Positions 28,001-41,280 of a DNA stretch of 54,973 bases are shown here, in pieces; the stretch's first letter is position 1, and every line of letters begins with the position of its first letter. The position numbers and the translations under genes were made by a program. The notes below the pieces were generated by a model. It saw nothing but the letters and a program-made list of their open reading frames with translations. It made no database searches and was not told the origin of the DNA. The stretch covers positions 1 through 54,973 of the forward strand of contig NZ_LFCV01000042.1 of NCBI RefSeq assembly GCF_001037465.1. The letters run 5' to 3'. This DNA is from Xenorhabdus khoisanae. GTDB lineage: Bacteria > Pseudomonadota > Gammaproteobacteria > Enterobacterales > Enterobacteriaceae.

Positions 28001-29332
<1,332 letters not shown>

Positions 29333-29575: not shown

Positions 29576-30394
29576 TCAGGATTGAATACGTGACCTATAT
29601 TTTTTATACTCCGCAGGAGTCGCCGCAACCAATTTTTTGAAATTCCTATGAAAGTGGCTTTGGTCATAAAAACCTAACTCAGTTGCTACAGACGCTATAT
29701 TCATTCCTTGCTTCAAAAGTACTTTTGCTTCATTAATGCGCATTGCGATTTGCATAGCATGTGGAGTAATACCATATGCCTTTCGAAATGCGTGGATAAT
29801 ATGATATTCACTCAATTGAGAGTGAACAGCGATATCCTTTACCGATATATTGCTTCGAAAATTTTCACAAATATATTCATACGCCCTAGATACACTACTT
29901 TTTGGTACAACTTTCTCTAAAGGTATGGAGTTGGACTGTGAAAAAAGATTGAAAAAAAAAGAGATGCTCTCTTCTTCCGTTTTCATTTTGTCTTTATCAA
30001 GAATGATTGTGTTGGCTAATTCTTGAAACTGTGCATAAAGTTCCGGAGCATCGGTATGATTAATTGAGAACGGGATAAAATTCGTTATTCTTTCACCTAC
30101 AATCATTGATTGCACATAACCTAACCATTTTGGACATACATACAGCATTTTGTAGCTCCAATTTGTATCTGGTACTGGGTTGCATGAATGGACCTCTAGA
30201 GGGTTAATTATGACAAGGGAACCCTTTTGTATTCTACGTTCAATATTACTATTGAAGTAATCACTATGACCGCAATCTACAGCTCCAATGGAAAATTCTT
30301 CATGAGTGTGTTTCCCGTAACAGGCTTTCGAGTTTTTAGAAAAGCGCAGCTCAATGGGTACTGCGCTCGAACGATAAAATTTTTGCTTGGTCAT
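29576..30394 (-). CDS. AraC-family regulator
   Basis: A 272-residue regulator with an N-terminal cupin (about residues 10-110; GKHTHEEFSIG, LVIINPLEVHSC) and a C-terminal double HTH (about residues 170-270; ISVKDIAVHSQLSEYHIIHA and NIASVATELGFYDQSHFHRNF). AraC regulators of this type often sit next to LysE exporters and respond to an amino acid. Only 17 bases separate its start from an IS5-type remnant, so its original upstream sequence has been displaced. It lies at the 3' end of the cluster at 30765-33572 on the same strand. Confidence 0.82.
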   Translation of the reverse strand: MTKQKFYRSSAVPIELRFSKNSKACYGKHTHEEFSIGAVDCGHSDYFNSNIERRIQKGSLVIINPLEVHSCNPVPDTNWSYKMLYVCPKWLGYVQSMIVGERITNFIPFSINHTDAPELYAQFQELANTIILDKDKMKTEEESISFFFNLFSQSNSIPLEKVVPKSSVSRAYEYICENFRSNISVKDIAVHSQLSEYHIIHAFRKAYGITPHAMQIAMRINEAKVLLKQGMNIASVATELGFYDQSHFHRNFKKLVAATPAEYKKYRSRIQS

Positions 30395-30410: not shown

Positions 30411-30768
30411 TTAGGGTCTGTTGATGTTTTGTGAGGAATTATTAGACAGCAAGATGATTTGGTATAATTACTTTTGCCAAAAAACAACCAGTTTTCACCA
30501 TAATGCCGCGAACCATGTTAACAGATCTCCATTGGAATAAGCTATTTGCGTTAATGCAACACACGGATTAGATTTATCACAAACTTGACCTTTGAAGGCA
30601 TTTTTTACCGAATGAGAATAAGCATTCTCTGGCGCGATTAACCGCCAGAATATGGGGAGGGGCAACTATGCTGACAGAGGGGGGATATGTTGGCACTGGA
30701 ATTTATCATTATCTGGTTACCGATGTGGGTTGAATGAATTATGACCTTAAAACATCAACAGACCCTAA
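30411..30768. mobile_element. Internally deleted IS5-type element
   Basis: A 358-base element bounded by perfect 20-base inverted ends (30411-30430 TTAGGGTCTGTTGATGTTTT; 30749-30768 its complement). Inside lie the first and last pieces of an IS5-family transposase in one orientation (see 30503-30737), so about 400 to 500 bases have been lost. It could still move if a matching transposase is elsewhere in the genome. The right end supplies the stop codon of the LysE gene. No clear target duplication beyond the TTA/TAA ends is seen. Confidence 0.85.
30503..30737 (+). pseudogene. IS5-family transposase remnant
   Basis: The N-terminal frame reads MPRTMLTDLHWNKLFALMQ and soon meets a TAG; this is the typical start of IS5/IS1031-like transposases. 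The C-terminal frame reads MLALEFIIIWLPMWVE before TGA, matching the ALACIFIWLPMW end of the same family. The catalytic DDE middle is missing. Not functional. Confidence 0.8.
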
Positions 30769-31367
30769 CCTGATATAAAAAAAGTATATACGACCGTAAT
30801 TGCTAACAGTAGCCCCATAGTGAGATTGAAAAGCTTATAATGTTTAGGTGTGTCCAAAACTGTCTTAATCGTTATTCCCAAAACAGCCCATGCTGAAATT
30901 GATGCATAACAGACAATAAAAAAAATCCCACAAAAAAGTAGTAGTGCATTAATTTCTGCATCGTGACTACTAAAAACGGATATGCCTGCTAAAGACACAA
31001 TCCATGCTTTCGGGTTAAGCCATTGGCACATTATTCCTTGTATAAGGGATGGAGCACTGGTTTCTGGTTCACTATCATCACCGATCATTGGGTTTTGCAT
31101 AGCAACTTTATATGCCAAGTATAATAAGAAACTGCCTCCTATATAGGTAAGTATTTCGGTAAGATATGGCACCTCATTTATAATTTGGGCTAATCCAAAG
31201 CCCAGTAAAAATAAAATCGATACAAAACCAATTGTAGCACCGGTTATATGTGGGATAGTTCGAATATATCCGCAATTGGCTCCGGTAACTGTCGCTATTA
31301 TGTTTACAGGTCCTGGCGATATAGAGGTTACAAAGGCAAAAACTGTCATTGCAAATAATTGAGTCAT
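30765..31367 (-). CDS. LysE-family amino-acid exporter
   Basis: A 200-residue inner-membrane protein with about six segments. The N-terminal FAFVTSISPGPVNIIATVTG carries the family SxSPGPxN motif; GGSFLLYLAYKVAMQNP near residue 95 and CQWLNPKAWIVSLAGIS near residue 125 (NPKAW) are further LysE/RhtB signatures. It is the last structural gene of the cluster, 13 bases after the molybdopterin-type gene, and so probably exports the cluster product or an amino acid. Its stop codon TAG lies inside the IS5-type end, so the last residues may differ from the ancestral protein. Confidence 0.85.
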   Translation of the reverse strand: MTQLFAMTVFAFVTSISPGPVNIIATVTGANCGYIRTIPHITGATIGFVSILFLLGFGLAQIINEVPYLTEILTYIGGSFLLYLAYKVAMQNPMIGDDSEPETSAPSLIQGIMCQWLNPKAWIVSLAGISVFSSHDAEINALLLFCGIFFIVCYASISAWAVLGITIKTVLDTPKHYKLFNLTMGLLLAITVVYTFFISG

Positions 31368-31380
31368 AAGCTTCTACCTC

Positions 31381-32019
31381 CTAAAAATCAGTTACTTCTC
31401 CAGAGCCATTAATAAAACGATTCTCTTGCAAATCAACAATACGGTACCGTTTTGCCTTGATTTTTCCCTCTTTGCAATAACCCGCTTTGCTTTCCCAAAA
31501 TCCTTGTTCGAACTCATCAGTAAAGTACAATTCAGACAAGCACTTAACCCCTTTGTACCGATATAGCGAAAAGTCGACTAGACGGATAGGATAACCTTCT
31601 TCCAAAGATAGGGGTTTACCGTCCACCGCCCAAATAATCATAGCTCTATTTTCTAATGCATTACTAAGGGATATTGTAGAGTCATACCCTCCCTTACTTG
31701 TACCTAAACTTATCTGCTTCAAATTGTATGAAAGATATTTTGCTTGGTTTATCCCTAGATATTTCAATAGGTCTTCTAGTAAAACACCTGTCCAGTTTCT
31801 TCTGATACTCCAATTGCAAACACATACAACTCGGCGGCTTTCTGTTATTGGCGCAATGTTCTTAAGGTCTTCGAATGCGACAAGAATTGGTGTTGACTCA
31901 TGAGGTAAAAATATCTTGAGCGCCCATTCTTTCATATCAATAGAATCATATGATTCAGGTGGCCCTTCTTGGTAGTACCGTAAAGAAGAAGGCTTCTTAT
32001 CAATATATGGAGTAATCAT
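31381..32019 (-). CDS. Sulfite-oxidase-fold (molybdopterin-binding) protein
   Basis: A 212-residue protein resembling the molybdopterin-binding domain of sulfite oxidase and MsrP. The likely metal-ligand cysteine is C66 in VCVCNWSIRRNWTGVLLEDLL, which matches the C-V-x-x-W-S...W-x-G pattern of MsrP. EEGYPIRLVDFSLYRYKGVKCL near residue 150 matches the second conserved block (G-x-P-x-R...Y-G-x-K). No Tat or Sec signal is present, unlike MsrP, so it should be cytosolic. It lies 23 bases after the SUMF1 gene in a tight operon. Reaction unknown; an oxidation or oxygen-transfer step on a small molecule is an inference. Confidence 0.65.
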   Translation of the reverse strand: MITPYIDKKPSSLRYYQEGPPESYDSIDMKEWALKIFLPHESTPILVAFEDLKNIAPITESRRVVCVCNWSIRRNWTGVLLEDLLKYLGINQAKYLSYNLKQISLGTSKGGYDSTISLSNALENRAMIIWAVDGKPLSLEEGYPIRLVDFSLYRYKGVKCLSELYFTDEFEQGFWESKAGYCKEGKIKAKRYRIVDLQENRFINGSGEVTDF

Positions 32020-32042
32020 ATTTTCCTTTCTTATGTAATCTA

Positions 32043-32795
32043 TTATAGAGATTTGACACAGCGTAAACCTACGATGTTGTCTCGTACTGTTGGAGGGTAG
32101 TTATCTCTGCATGTACAGCGCATATAATCTTCATCATGCAGCCCTGAACCACCTCGAACTACATGATCGTCAGTAGGAATACTAAGATAAACGGGATCAA
32201 TATGAGTTTTGTCCCAACTGTAATCTTGGTAGTAATTATCTAGACACCACTCAGCTAGATTACCTGCCATATCAATACAACCAAATGGAGAGCGATTTTG
32301 TGGATGTGCATCCCAATCCGTGGATTTTCGGTTAAGCTCAGCTGGCTCACAGTCTGGGGCATAGTTTGCAATTGTAATAGATGGCTCGCTATTTCCCCAT
32401 GGATAGAGTCGATTATCGTTCCCCTTCGCAGCAAATTCCCACTGCGCTTCAGTGGGTAATTCCTTACCTACAAATGTTGCGTATGCGACAGCTTCATACC
32501 AACTAATGCCGGTTACTGGCTGCTTTGGTTGGTTCCAATTAGAATCATGCCAATATAAAGGTTCCGAAATACCATTATCTTGGATAAACTGAAAACCTTC
32601 TTCTGACCAATATTTCTTACTTCTATAGCCCCCCTGCTCAATGAACACTGCAAACTCAGCGTTAGTCACAGGGTGAACATCAATGAAAAAATCACTAAGG
32701 GTAACTACGCACACAGGTTGCTCATCAGGGCTCAACTCTGAACCGCGTAGATAAGGAGATCCTGTCACTAAAACCATATCAATTAAATTGTTCAT
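32043..32795 (-). CDS. SUMF1/FGE-fold protein (not a classical formylglycine-generating enzyme)
   Basis: A 250-residue protein spanning one SUMF1 domain: the VTLSDFFIDVHPVTNAEFAVF segment near residue 31, PVTGISWYEAVAYATFVGKELPTEAQWEFAAKG from residue 93, YPWGN, IDMAGNLAEWCLD, and the C-terminal VVRGGSGLHDEDYMRCTCRDN followed by GLRCV. The family includes the sulfatase activator FGE, EgtB/OvoA sulfoxide synthases and PvdO. The first copper cysteine of true FGE is missing here, and there is no DinB domain as in EgtB, so the chemistry is probably different. It overlaps the DUF2000 gene by 4 bases. Confidence 0.75.
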   Translation of the reverse strand: MNNLIDMVLVTGSPYLRGSELSPDEQPVCVVTLSDFFIDVHPVTNAEFAVFIEQGGYRSKKYWSEEGFQFIQDNGISEPLYWHDSNWNQPKQPVTGISWYEAVAYATFVGKELPTEAQWEFAAKGNDNRLYPWGNSEPSITIANYAPDCEPAELNRKSTDWDAHPQNRSPFGCIDMAGNLAEWCLDNYYQDYSWDKTHIDPVYLSIPTDDHVVRGGSGLHDEDYMRCTCRDNYPPTVRDNIVGLRCVKSL

Positions 32796-33196
32796 CGTAT
32801 TAACTTCATATTTCCAGTTTGCTTAATGATGGCTTTTTTGTCGCCGTACACAGCTATGCCTAAATATTCGATGCTGTCCTCACTGGCTGCCTCTAACCTA
32901 CTTGAGTAATCCTCATAACTCTTAGTGTTTTTTGCTACGTTCGAGAAGTCAACTATCGTAGCGTATGATTGTAATTGAGAACGAATTTCCTTTATCTCGC
33001 TTGCAGTTGCCGCAAGAATTGGGATTGGGATACGCGTGATCCCAAAATGATCCCCTCCATCACGGTTCTTGATATTGTCACCTACGAGCTCAGGGTGAGC
33101 CTTGCCAAGGCTAAGAGCTAGCACTGCTGCTGTGTTTGCAATGACTCCAAGAGGAAGATCTTTATCGATTACCAATACACACTTTTTGTCATTCAT
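32792..33196 (-). CDS. DUF2000 protein
   Basis: A 134-residue soluble protein of the DUF2000 family (PTH2-like fold). Family features: KCVLVIDKDLPLGVIANTAAVLALSLGK at the N-terminus, ITRIPIPILAAT near residue 52, and LGIAVYGDKKAI near the end. The role of DUF2000 is unknown; the fold resembles peptidyl-tRNA hydrolase 2. It begins on the last base of the decayed BacA-like gene (TAATG) and overlaps the SUMF1 gene, so it was translated together with both. Confidence 0.75.
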   Translation of the reverse strand: MNDKKCVLVIDKDLPLGVIANTAAVLALSLGKAHPELVGDNIKNRDGGDHFGITRIPIPILAATASEIKEIRSQLQSYATIVDFSNVAKNTKSYEDYSSRLEAASEDSIEYLGIAVYGDKKAIIKQTGNMKLIR

Positions 33197-33572
33197 TATG
33201 CAACTTTCCTTTTATGAATTTGGCTGTTAGAAAATACCACCCATGTCATTTCAATATGTAGAGGGTGAGATATTGCTGTAAGCCCATAATGTTTAATTGC
33301 ATCAGCATTCGCTAAGCAACAATCAACATCGCCGTTTACAACTAGTCTCGCTCCATTGCTTGTAGAGTTCGTAATCTCTATTTCTAAATGAGCATCGGAT
33401 ATTCCAAAAATCTTGTCTTCAGCCGATTCAATTAAGCTCTCTAAACGAGATAGAGGCGCGTGATGCGTAGCTATTTTTATGGTTTGTTGCTCAGCTATCT
33501 TGGTCCAAGAGTCGCGATTGAAGCAATTTCTGGGGGGTGCCTAATCCAAAAGCTATCAGTGTTAAATATCAT
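33196..33572 (-). pseudogene. BacA-like prephenate decarboxylase remnant
   Basis: Two pieces on the minus strand. The first, from ATG at 33572, reads MIFNTDSFWIRHPPEIASIA then TLGPR and stops, matching the TLGPEGTSS start of prephenate dehydratase/decarboxylase proteins. After a frame change the second reads IKIATHHAPLSRLESLI, then EITNSTSNGARLV, HYGLTAISHPLHIEMTWVVFS and TAA at 33196. The second matches the tail of BacA (VSHPSPINLI, LVNSTSAAAKRV, KYGLQF..IPMSW as recalled). About 80 middle residues are missing, so the enzyme is dead. BacA-type enzymes decarboxylate prephenate for non-proteinogenic amino acids such as anticapsin precursors and dihydrophenylalanine. Confidence 0.7.
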
Positions 33573-33901
33573 CTCATAATTCGCTTAAGTTAAATTTACA
33601 TTAACGATATTCCTGCCTGGATGTTAAATATTGTACAAAATTGTTGTTTATAGAATTGCGCAAAATGAGAGTGTAGAATCTATGAAAGCTTCCATTTTTA
33701 CTAGCCAAGTCGCCGCTAATCTTCACCTGTTTTTATGGCATTGCGAGTTCTTCTCTATAGCACAAAAAGCCACACTAACAGGCCAAAAATTAGACATGTG
33801 GTGCAATGAAACTTGGATTAATGGAATATGGCTTGGGGAAGGTGCCGGTGGAACTTTGCCGTATGGTTTACCATGACGTTTATTCTATAAAACATTGATC
33901 C

Positions 33902-34015: not shown

Positions 34016-34462
34016 TTGCTCTGGATCATTAGCTTGTTATCGCTTTTTCATCTATCACAACGCCGAACACCTGCCTTTATCGCCTTATTGGCGATTTTGA
34101 TGTTGTTCATCGCGCCAGTGGTATCAAAAACGCTGGAGCACCATCGTGATGATATAAAAAGCGAAATGAATCACAGCATGTCTATGCCTGACATGCAAAA
34201 CAGCAGTTATCATCAAACAGCGCCTTCATCACACTCCATGAATCATCATGGTGCTGATCATATCCATATGGGGTTGATGGATGATATCGCTTGTGGTTAC
34301 TGTCAGCTTCTGATTAACCTGCCATTATTGGCAGGCTGTTTTATTCCTTTCATCCTGCTGACGCTAACCGTATCCCGTGCGCCACCAGCACCACGCTTCA
34401 CTGGACCAATCATCCGGCTATTCTACGGAGAATCACAACCCCGCGCCCCTCCCCTTAATTAG
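34016..34462 (+). CDS. DUF2946 protein, putative copper-binding membrane protein
   Basis: A 148-residue protein with an N-terminal hydrophobic segment (FIALLAILMLFIAPVVS), a histidine/methionine-rich stretch (about residues 60-90: MNHSMSMPDM, HSMNHHGADHIHMG), a CGYC motif near residue 103, and a second hydrophobic segment (LPLLAGCFIPFILLTLTVS). This is the DUF2946 pattern found next to copper-linked TonB receptors. The start is uncertain: the annotated codon is TTG with GTGGAA before it. It lies 79 bases before the OprC-like gene and probably forms an operon with it for copper handling. Confidence 0.75.
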   Translation: MLWIISLLSLFHLSQRRTPAFIALLAILMLFIAPVVSKTLEHHRDDIKSEMNHSMSMPDMQNSSYHQTAPSSHSMNHHGADHIHMGLMDDIACGYCQLLINLPLLAGCFIPFILLTLTVSRAPPAPRFTGPIIRLFYGESQPRAPPLN

Positions 34463-34541
34463 TCTACTTAATTGAAATAAAGGATTTTATTTTTCTTGCC
34501 TTGTTTTGTTTGATTTGTGACTAATTAAGGAATATTTTTTT

Positions 34542-36551
34542 ATGTCCACTACACAATTGTTTCGTATATCACCTCTGACAACCGCTTTGGCAATTGCCCT
34601 TGCCCTACCAACCAGCGGCATGGCTGCCAGTGAACATCACTCCAAAGAGATAAAAGAAACGCACAATGTTAATGATAGAGAGTCTGTCATCATCGTAACG
34701 GCTCCGGCTGTTTCCCCGCTTGAAGTGGCGACTTCACTCAAAACGCCGCGTCAGCCAGTCCCTGCCAGTGATGGTTCTGATTATCTGAAAACCATTCCCG
34801 GTTTTTCTCAGATCCGTAATGGTGGTACTAACGGCGATCCTGTATTCCGTGGCATGTTTGGTTCTCGTTTGCGAATGCTGATTGATGACGGCGAAATTCT
34901 TGGCTCCTGTGGCGGACGCATGGATGCACCAAGTTCTTATATTTCACCGGAAAGCTATGATGTTCTCAGTTTAGTGAAAGGCCCACAAACTGTACTTTGG
35001 GGACCGGGTAACTCTGCGGGCACTATTCGTTTTGAACGTACCCGCCCTCAATTTGAACAATTTGGTGCTCAAGGTAATGTCAGTACCGTTGTCGGTTCCA
35101 ATGGGCGTTGGGATGGTAATGCCGACCTCAGTTTGGGGAATGAACTGGGTTATATTCGGATGATTGGTAATAAATCCCGCTCTAATGATTACAAAGACGG
35201 TGATGGTCATCGCGTACCTTCTCGTTGGGATAAATGGAATACCGATGTCGCATTAGGTTGGACGCCAGATGAAAATACCTTGCTGGAATTAAATGCTGGA
35301 CAAGGCGATGGCGAAGCGCGCTATGCCACTCGTATGATGGATGGCTCCCAATTTAAGCGTAAAAGTTTTGGGATACGTTTTGAGAAATCCAATATTGGTG
35401 AGGTTTTTGACAAATTTGAAACTAATTTTTATTACAACTACACCGACCATGTGATGGATACTTATTCCCTGCGCCATTCAGAACATAAAATGGCTTCAGA
35501 GCCAGATCGCCTTACGATGGGCGGCCGCATGATCGGAACCTGGATTTGGGAAGATTTCAAATTACAAAGCGGCGTAGATACGCAAACGAACACCCATCGG
35601 ACTAATACCGATCGCTTTATGAAAAAAGAAGAAAGAATAGGCTGGAAGAAGAATGCCCGTTTCAGTGATTATGGTATTTTCAGTGAATTAACGTGGGATG
35701 CGACTGAACAAAGCAAAGTAATCGGCGGTGCACGCTTGGATCGCGTGATGGTGTATAAATATAGTACCCAGCAAGAACGCAAAGATACTCTTCCCGCTGG
35801 CTTTATCCGTTTTGAACATAATCTGAAAGATGTCCCAGTGATGTTCTATGCTGGCGTTGGTTATACCGAACGTTTTCCTGATTACTGGGAGTTATTTTCT
35901 GGCAAAGCCGGAGAAGATGCTTTCACTAATATCAAGGCCGAAAAGACAACCCAGTTGGATATCGGTGCGCAATATAATGATCAATACCTGAAAGGCTGGG
36001 TATCGGCTTATGTGGGTAAAGTGAATGACTTTATCTTGTTCCGTTATGGCGAGAATGCTCGTAATAACCAAGCCCATAATATCGATGCCACTATCATGGG
36101 CGGAGAAATGGGAGTTGCTTATCAGTTGACCGACAATTGGAAAACGGATGCAAGTTTAGCGTATTCCTGGGCACAAAATACGACAAATCACCGTCCTCTG
36201 CCACAAACTCCACCTTTGGAAGCGCGATTCGGTCTGACTTGGGAACATGGTGATTGGACCAGCAGCAGTTTGCTGCGTTTGGTTAACAGCCAGCATCGGG
36301 TCGCCATCAATGAAGGTAACGTTGTAGGCAAAGATTTTAATAGCAGTAGAAGTTTTGCCATCTTGTCTGCCAATGCGGCCTATAAAGTGACTAAAAATGT
36401 TCAGGTCAGCGCTGGTGTTGACAACATTTTCAATAAAACCTATAGCGAGCACCTTAACTTGGCAGGAAATGGAGGCTTTGGTTATTCAGGCAATACGCAA
36501 ATCAACGAGCCGGGACGGACTTATTGGGCAAGAGTTAATGTTAAGTTCTAA
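34542..36551 (+). CDS. TonB-dependent copper receptor (OprC/NosA-like)
   Basis: A 669-residue outer-membrane beta-barrel protein. The signal peptide (IALALPTSGMAA, residues 17-28) is followed by the plug domain: SDYLKTIPGFSQIRNGGTNGD near residue 78, RGMFGSRLRMLIDDGEI, and SLVKGPQTVLWGPGNSAGTI near residue 145. The barrel ends RTYWARVNVKF with terminal phenylalanine. The plug wording is that of the TonB-dependent copper receptor family. With the His/Met-rich DUF2946 protein before it, a role in copper uptake or sensing is likely. AAGGAA precedes the ATG. A terminator follows the stop. Confidence 0.88.
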   Translation: MSTTQLFRISPLTTALAIALALPTSGMAASEHHSKEIKETHNVNDRESVIIVTAPAVSPLEVATSLKTPRQPVPASDGSDYLKTIPGFSQIRNGGTNGDPVFRGMFGSRLRMLIDDGEILGSCGGRMDAPSSYISPESYDVLSLVKGPQTVLWGPGNSAGTIRFERTRPQFEQFGAQGNVSTVVGSNGRWDGNADLSLGNELGYIRMIGNKSRSNDYKDGDGHRVPSRWDKWNTDVALGWTPDENTLLELNAGQGDGEARYATRMMDGSQFKRKSFGIRFEKSNIGEVFDKFETNFYYNYTDHVMDTYSLRHSEHKMASEPDRLTMGGRMIGTWIWEDFKLQSGVDTQTNTHRTNTDRFMKKEERIGWKKNARFSDYGIFSELTWDATEQSKVIGGARLDRVMVYKYSTQQERKDTLPAGFIRFEHNLKDVPVMFYAGVGYTERFPDYWELFSGKAGEDAFTNIKAEKTTQLDIGAQYNDQYLKGWVSAYVGKVNDFILFRYGENARNNQAHNIDATIMGGEMGVAYQLTDNWKTDASLAYSWAQNTTNHRPLPQTPPLEARFGLTWEHGDWTSSSLLRLVNSQHRVAINEGNVVGKDFNSSRSFAILSANAAYKVTKNVQVSAGVDNIFNKTYSEHLNLAGNGGFGYSGNTQINEPGRTYWARVNVKF

Positions 36552-40308: not shown

Positions 40309-40842
40309 TTAGTTGTAATTTACCGTACAGTCATAAGTCGAAATATATGGCGGCTGATACAACCCGCCCGTGATATTTCCAACTTTCATTTGCAAGGTGA
40401 TCCTACAGTCTGCTGGAATATTAGAACCTGCAGCATTGACAGTGGTCGAGCTACTGGCTACATCCAGAAGTGCTTCCCATGCAGCAGAATTATTCGGAGT
40501 GGTAATAACAAGACGCAGCGTGATTTGATTTTGCCAGCCAGCCCAATTGAGTCGGTTATAGTTACACAAAATGGTGCTCACAATTCCCCCTGAAGGAGTC
40601 TGTCCGCTTAAAGGAGCCAAAGTCGCACCAGAAATATACACTCCGCCTTGAGTTGGTTTAGGCCCTGAATTAGCACGATACCAACTTGGTCCAGCTCGTT
40701 GCGCGAGATTGTCCTCTGCTTCAGTTTGCTGTTGTAGTAAATCCAGCAGAGATGAATCTTCTTTGGTTAGGTCTATTGGGGTCAACGAAACGGTTTGCCC
40801 CTCTTTCAACAGCATATCAGGGGGAAGAATCAGCTTATTCAT
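40309..40842 (-). CDS. Hypothetical protein, unrecognised
   Basis: A 177-residue soluble protein with no recognised domain and no signal peptide. AGGAG lies 7 bases before its ATG, which supports real translation. The N-terminal part (about 50 residues) is acidic and helical (TKEDSSLLDLLQQQTEAED). The rest is rich in Ser, Thr, Asn and Gly with alternating strand-like patterns (GGVYISGATLAPL, QITLRLVITTPN, CRITLQMKVGNITGG) and two cysteines, suggesting a beta-sandwich, for instance a lectin- or fibre-like fold. It lies alone behind a broken LysR gene. Function unknown. Confidence 0.55.
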   Translation of the reverse strand: MNKLILPPDMLLKEGQTVSLTPIDLTKEDSSLLDLLQQQTEAEDNLAQRAGPSWYRANSGPKPTQGGVYISGATLAPLSGQTPSGGIVSTILCNYNRLNWAGWQNQITLRLVITTPNNSAAWEALLDVASSSTTVNAAGSNIPADCRITLQMKVGNITGGLYQPPYISTYDCTVNYN

Positions 40843-40857
40843 TCACATTCTCCTAAT

Positions 40858-41280
40858 TTATATCGAAAAGATGGTGTAGGGAATTAAAACATCTCTCGCA
40901 AATGCAACACAATCGATAATGCTGTACTGATGATCCTTATAAATTGGCAGAGTAGGACTTATTGGTATAAGAGAGGCGCTTGCTAGCCCTTCATACTTCT
41001 GAACACCCTGACCTGCGATAGTCGCTTGGATAGCGTGACTTTCCTCGTAATACCGAATACCAGTGGACACATCTGATGGGTTAAGTCCGGTGACTTGGGC
41101 CCAGACACTCCATGTTAGATCTACAGGCAGAGAGCGATGCCAGTCGAAATGAATCAAAGGCCATTGTGATACATCCTGATTTATCGTCGTTAGGAGCGTT
41201 GGACTGGCGACAGGCGCAAAATGATCCTCCAGAAGCAACGTAGCGATCTCACCCGCATACTGACTAAGACCATACCTAAT
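40858..41280 (-). pseudogene. LysR regulator remnant (effector domain only)
   Basis: An open minus-strand frame begins IRYGLSQYAGEIATLLLED and continues DHFAPVASPTLL, LIHFDWHRSLPVDLTW and ESHAIQATIAGQGV. These are the effector-domain blocks of GcvA-like LysR regulators. The DNA-binding half and dimer helix are missing at the 5' side, and after GQGV the sequence no longer follows the family. There is no start codon for the full frame. Non-functional remnant. Confidence 0.7.

Follow-up and report, generated by a model that had tools for sequence, protein, structure and literature searches.

The stretch of DNA analysed here (the window; 54,973 nucleotides, positions 1 to 54,973 of contig NZ_LFCV01000042.1 of Xenorhabdus khoisanae) is one contig of a draft assembly of 265 contigs. 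Its minus strand carries a compact operon of the composition bacA-DUF2000-SUMF1-moly-lysE-araC, in which moly stands for a short protein of the molybdopterin fold. The first gene, a relative of the prephenate-decarboxylase gene bacA, is broken in this strain. The features of the locus are:

33196..33572, minus strand: bacA-like gene (prephenate dehydratase (PDT) fold, prephenate-decarboxylase type), broken; two pieces matched by a BacA-like model
32792..33196, minus strand: DUF2000 protein, 134 amino acids, peptidyl-tRNA-hydrolase-2 (PTH2) fold; PF09391, E = 2.2e-41, 141.4 bits against a cut-off of 25
32043..32795, minus strand: SUMF1/FGE-fold protein, 250 amino acids, without a DinB domain; PF03781, E = 1.2e-52
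31381..32019, minus strand: short molybdopterin-fold oxidoreductase (moly), 212 amino acids, with an invariant Cys66; PF00174, E = 9.7e-23
30765..31367, minus strand: LysE-family amino-acid exporter, 200 amino acids; PF01810, E = 1.1e-19, 71.1 bits against a cut-off of 25.6
30414..30765, no strand: insert of 352 bases at the lysE stop, not present in X. lircayensis and X. szentirmaii
29576..30394, minus strand: AraC-family regulator, sixth operon gene, downstream of lysE in relatives; PF12833 and PF02311

An earlier note on this DNA had described five packed minus-strand genes at 30765-33572, with overlaps of 1 and 4 bases and gaps of 23 and 13. This layout is exact; four of the genes are intact and the 5' gene is broken. 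The Pfam matches of LysE, moly, SUMF1 and DUF2000 all exceed their family cut-offs. The araC gene, absent from that note, lies on the same strand as lysE and about 60 bases or less downstream of it in loci L010 and L011 and in the Vibrio/Aliivibrio loci L012-L015. In the window the two genes are separated by the 352-base insert, whose edges are spanned by a 20-base perfect inverted repeat (30411-30430 and 30749-30768). Extra DNA at this site is also found in X. anantnagensis (L009) and in L049. By eye, the extra DNA at the lysE-araC junction of L049 holds a transposase-like frame.

The remnant of the bacA-like gene starts with an ATG at 33572, and its stop codon ends at 33196. Compared with X. 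anantnagensis, one block of 259 bases is gone between 33501 and 33502 (L009 7036-7294), and the reading frame is shifted downstream of this deletion. The remnant aligns to the BacA-like model as two pieces, at positions 1-29 and 110-210, and its 114-amino-acid stop-free stretch has no Pfam or NCBIfam match. At the same place, an open frame of 211 amino acids is found in X. anantnagensis, X. bovienii T228, X. lircayensis and X. szentirmaii; strains with an intact gene, as the earlier note had hoped for, do exist.

The remnant belongs with BacA and is not a piece of an ordinary pheA, the outcome that the earlier note had named as fatal to its proposal. This is based on the kinship of the protein to BacA, on a motif of PheA, on the intact pheA of the strain and on the search of the assembly. 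The strain's pheA is an open frame of 390 amino acids on contig C8, and the BacA-like model matches nothing but the remnant in this assembly (E up to 0.01). When the BacA-like proteins are aligned with the strain's PheA, its TRF motif, which we take to have a catalytic role in PDT/PheA, faces a gap in 19 of 19 rows; the letters TRF occur elsewhere in one row only (L030). A pheA fragment is ruled out by these three results. As for kinship, the BacA-like protein of Arcobacter shares 39% identity with the annotated BacA of Streptomyces goshikiensis. This gene is neighboured by a cupin, a short-chain dehydrogenase/reductase oxidoreductase, an annotated glucose 1-dehydrogenase, a major facilitator superfamily transporter and an aminotransferase, a neighbourhood that in our own reading may resemble the bacilysin layout. 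A search of a plasmid collection with the Arcobacter relative gave 20 records, including annotated BacA proteins, 36-40% identical, of Streptomyces, Pantoea and P. aeruginosa. From sequence kinship we infer that the operon enzyme is of the BacA type, and a non-aromatising decarboxylation is predicted for it.

Copies of the operon are found in Xenorhabdus, Vibrio, Aliivibrio, Arcobacter, Sulfurovum and Rhodoferax; marine bacteria are among the carriers of intact copies. The same order thus recurs in five further named genera, which makes the gene set more than a chance association; the co-occurrence in other genomes on which the earlier note had staked its proposal is real, and the genes form a conserved unit. 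The operon is nevertheless rare and scattered, as indicated by low genome counts. With the SUMF1 protein of the window as the query (E up to 1e-20), 6 of 30 Xenorhabdus genomes gave a match, as did 2 of 149 genomes at family level; one match in each set is a fragment. At E up to 1e-55, the SUMF1 alignment A2 detected 3 of 394 genomes in the order and 8 of 296 in the family to which the Aliivibrio and Vibrio copies belong; at E up to 1e-50 it detected 1 of 398 in the phylum, namely the window genome itself. All counts except 8 of 296 include the window genome. The SUMF1 proteins of the named Xenorhabdus relatives are 94-99% identical to that of the window. In named genomes, 14 loci were detected, 11 with the operon and three with a distant SUMF1 protein alone; these three (L020-L022), the most distant at about 33%, have no other operon gene and were excluded.

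Of the twenty copies tallied, 12 are full-length in all five core genes, two are cut by contig ends (L017, L045) and six are broken (the window, L013, L044, L047, L048, L049). Full-length means a coverage of at least 0.92, a genome with more than one record was counted once (without L004-L007, L012, L023, L033-L041), and genomes with only DUF2000 do not count as copies. For L011, L031, L014, L018, L019, L046 and the moly of L045 the own or variant protein served as the query, so a coverage of 1.00 there signifies an open frame only. A full-length LysE-type gene is found in 18 of the 20 copies, even where the subfamily differs (exceptions: L017, at a contig end, and the decayed L048), which bears out the claim that an exporter belongs to the set. 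The Arcobacter and Sulfurovum LysE proteins are only about 20% identical to those of Xenorhabdus, so an amino-acid exporter was seemingly recruited more than once. In the Vibrio variant L046 the order is BacA-like, SUMF1, moly, DUF2000 and LysE, with a neighbouring divergent Lrp-like frame; its BacA-like protein is divergent and its LysE is different. A single open frame of 458/459 amino acids encodes SUMF1 and moly as a fusion in Sulfurovum and Arcobacter. This fusion, the rearranged Vibrio variant and the repeated recruitment of LysE are signs of one functional unit. Across 10 copies the protein distances of the five proteins correlate with r = 0.87 to 0.96, highest for SUMF1-moly; as relatedness is contained in these values, they show common descent only.

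The SUMF1 protein has EgtB (4x8b) and FGE as its best PDB relatives, and EgtB is its best NCBIfam match (1.3e-41, 143 of the required 360 bits). It aligns to EgtB residues 174-429 only. The DinB domain, which presumably carries the EgtB iron ligands, is absent and the score is below the EgtB cut-off, which excludes an EgtB/OvoA proper. An FGE proper is excluded by the absence of the active-site cysteine pair: compared with 6muj, and with the pair at the positions we assume, the first Cys lies within an insertion, and the second is opposite Tyr224. The motif RGGSGLHDED is invariant in 10 of 10 rows of alignment A2. Similarly, Cys66 of moly, which we take to be the Mo-ligand position of the sulfite oxidase superfamily, is invariant in 10 of 10 rows of alignment A3. 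The PDB relatives of moly are SorA (2blf) and 1xdq. Its match to MsrP in NCBIfam (8.2e-14, 51.6 of 207 bits) is below the family cut-off, and its start, MITPYIDKKPSS, has no RR signal for twin-arginine translocation (Tat) as expected for a periplasmic MsrP. The operon joins BacA to the SUMF1 and Mo families, of which we know no earlier description as a pair.

The DUF2000 protein has the PTH2 fold. At the position of the Gly-Lys motif of PTH2, as we assume this motif to be, the window protein has Gly-Val, which speaks against plain PTH2 activity. Two plasmid loci, of Azospirillum and Paracoccus (L050, L054), contain a DUF2000-LysE-AraC trio with no BacA, SUMF1 or Mo protein nearby. The name DUF2000 was not found in the open-access literature searched, and the operon offers this family a testable setting.

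Among the Xenorhabdus copies, DNA similarity to the window extends to about 85-110 bases upstream of the bacA start on one side and to near the araC stop on the other, and by eye the flanking genes differ. In V. halioticoli, the operon is located on a 244-kb plasmid. The bacA gene is broken in all six broken copies and is the sole broken gene in two of them (the window and Vibrio sp. J1-1), and LysE and AraC are full-length in five of the six. Two copies are heavily decayed, L048 (G027) in another genus of the family and L049 (G174) in another Xenorhabdus, which retains only lysE and araC at full length. In L047 a TAG lies within the SUMF1 match in one search; the frame is open over 99% in the tally, and its SUMF1 was not counted as broken. 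In the window, the dN/dS ratios (nonsynonymous to synonymous changes) against X. anantnagensis are 0.08 for the bacA 3' piece, 0.28 for DUF2000, 0.05 for SUMF1, 0.12 for moly, 0.21 for LysE and 0.20 for AraC. They are based on few changes, and the LysE rows of L010 and L011 are unusable owing to a one-codon length difference in an ungapped comparison. These low values fit a recent loss of bacA. Exporter and regulator are retained in this strain despite this loss. With its first step missing, the pathway is probably off here, the remaining genes being idle or acting on a compound from elsewhere.

Two genes near the operon were considered as pathway members, an omega-aminotransferase (28001-29332) and a TonB receptor (34542-36551). 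Both were rejected because they have no match in the relatives' loci searched and because the Xenorhabdus similarity stops at about 29579-29597 and 33656-33683. At 34016-36551, adjoining the operon, a DUF2946 protein is followed by the TonB-dependent receptor, a pair that we presume to be tied to metal uptake; it is unmatched beside the operon in the relatives searched. Further away, at 40309-41238, two adjacent minus-strand frames of 177 and 126 amino acids have no Pfam match at 0.01.

Taken together, the operon is probably a small, horizontally moving unit that would divert prephenate to a non-proteinogenic amino acid and export it. BacA decarboxylates prephenate without aromatisation, as described in an extract of PMC9147277, and according to an extract of PMC5897657 the dihydrophenylalanine of Photorhabdus is made by a prephenate decarboxylase followed by a transaminase. 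Given these two precedents, a route to a non-aromatic amino acid is the likeliest reading. The BacA-like enzyme would decarboxylate prephenate (or arogenate) without aromatisation, yielding a compound of the dihydro-hydroxyphenylpyruvate type. Since the operon has no transaminase, a housekeeping one is proposed as the source of the amino group. SUMF1 and moly might act as a two-part enzyme that oxidises or otherwise tailors the ring or side chain. LysE would export the amino acid, AraC (an Lrp-like gene in one variant) would control the set, and DUF2000 could be an accessory protein connected with the amino acid or with its export. The earlier note had suggested a prephenate-derived or oxidised/thiolated amino acid: the conserved unit, the intact relatives and the BacA-type remnant favour the first half of this suggestion, and the thiolated product is not upheld. 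Its remark that it knew of no described pathway with this set agrees with the searches of an open-access library, in which none was found among the papers listed.

Several observations weigh against this route. The PF00800 matches are weak, 26.2, 23.3, 18.2, 25.2 and 29.5 bits in the five intact relatives (at or above the cut-off of 25.2 in three of five) and 27.8 bits in the variant L046, so the substrate could differ. The BacA tree, with good support for 5 of its 17 inner branches, does not unite the operon's BacA-like rows in a single clade: Rhodoferax remains unplaced, the S. goshikiensis protein annotated as BacA groups with Arcobacter/Sulfurovum, and L046, on a long branch that is flagged as unsure, groups with Phaeobacter and ATP-grasp-linked proteins. 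The operon contains none of the aminotransferase, reductase and ligase genes that known BacA pathways have. No AraC adjoins the Rhodoferax set, and the SUMF1 protein of L046 has not kept RGGSGLHDED (it is without HDED). DUF2000 also occurs without BacA and is therefore not specific to prephenate chemistry; LysE is absent from 6 of 8 DUF2000 loci. The window LysE has no match at 1e-3 in the Pantoea-type BacA clusters described below, so their exporter is a family relative only. Finally, the predicted structure of the SUMF1-moly fusion is poor (predicted local distance difference test score, pLDDT, 59.8) and was not used.

An unlikely alternative is a function in repair or detoxification, with the BacA-like protein serving as a binding or chaperone protein, moly/SUMF1 repairing or degrading an oxidised amino acid and LysE exporting the result. 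MsrP is a repair enzyme, the DUF2000-LysE-AraC trio stands alone in Azospirillum and Paracoccus, a sulfite-oxidase-like gene lies near msrB on a Comamonas plasmid, and the Phaeobacter BacA-like gene is found among genes of unclear biosynthetic kind. However, the same set is accompanied by divergent BacA-like proteins, and several other BacA relatives adjoin non-ribosomal peptide synthetase/polyketide synthase (NRPS/PKS), ATP-grasp or aminotransferase genes.

A bolder scheme, for which we see a small chance, would have SUMF1 and the Mo protein form a new pair, with chemistry new to both families, that acts on the prephenate-derived amino acid. DUF2000, with its PTH fold, would hydrolyse mischarged tRNA and so protect the producer, and LysE would export the amino acid. 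If so, the repeated loss of bacA with exporter and regulator kept would reflect non-producing strains that stay immune.

A sulfur route seems improbable. Here an EgtB/OvoA-like SUMF1 protein would form a C-S bond as a sulfoxide, and an MsrP-like moly would reduce it to a thioether or thiol amino acid. EgtB is the best NCBIfam and PDB match of SUMF1, moly does resemble MsrP, and the two proteins are fused in two species. Against this, both scores are far below their cut-offs, the DinB domain is missing (the alignment to EgtB begins at residue 174), and the conserved unit showed no cysteine or sulfur gene; these absences, together with that of the FGE cysteine pair, speak against the thiolated product of the earlier note. 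It is just as improbable that the break in bacA is an assembly error and the operon of the strain intact: the draft state of the assembly and the low dN/dS of the remaining genes would allow it, but the gap is a clean single block with flanks 95-97% identical to L009, a further bacA-like copy was not found in the assembly, and five other copies have bacA broken too, elsewhere in the gene.

To return to the proposed route from prephenate to an exported amino acid, anticapsin and dihydrophenylalanine are examples of the antimetabolites to which BacA-type enzymes lead. The compact set is intact in X. szentirmaii DSM 16338 and V. halioticoli, and a new amino acid as well as new SUMF1/Mo chemistry could come to light from it.

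A comparison with known systems sets the operon in context. EgtB and FGE share the fold and core motifs of PF03781 with the operon's SUMF1 protein, which differs from them in having neither a DinB domain nor the FGE cysteine pair and in its own RGGSGLHDED motif (not in L046). MsrP, YedY and SorA share the PF00174 fold and the invariant Cys with moly, which is short, has no Tat-type start and no extra domain, and is fused to SUMF1 in two lineages.

A second type of BacA cluster was observed on plasmids of Pantoea vagans, P. aeruginosa NY8709 and Photobacterium sp. GJ3 (L028, L029 and L025; the content of the last was read by eye). It comprises Lrp, Dabb, DUF2000, a PaaK-like ligase, a transaminase, BacA, a carboxymuconolactone-decarboxylase-like protein, ornithine cyclodeaminase and LysE. 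BacA, DUF2000, a LysE-type gene and an Lrp-type regulator (compare the Lrp-like frame of L046) are common to this cluster and the operon, whereas the ligase, transaminase, Dabb, carboxymuconolactone-decarboxylase-like and ornithine cyclodeaminase genes are extra; no SUMF1 or Mo protein was found in the Pantoea-type clusters searched. A possible link of the Pantoea BacA-DUF2000 cluster to the antibiotic PNP-3 was considered, of which extracts of PMC11350110 and PMC7744662 name no genes. The Streptomyces BacA clusters L026 and L032 have no annotated DUF2000 and adjoin NRPS/PKS genes.

The bac operon for bacilysin/anticapsin, as described in an extract of PMC9147277, shares with the present operon a BacA-type first enzyme and an exporter of its own. 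In contrast to it, the present operon has no cupin, reductase, aminotransferase or ligase (frames read by eye), and instead contains the SUMF1-fold, Mo-fold and DUF2000 proteins, with an exporter of the LysE family. In the Photorhabdus route, a non-aromatising decarboxylase reroutes prephenate to a non-protein amino acid, as proposed here; the extract of PMC5897657 names a decarboxylase and a transaminase only, and not the SUMF1/Mo/DUF2000/LysE set. The operon is a new partner set within the known BacA-led amino-acid pathways.

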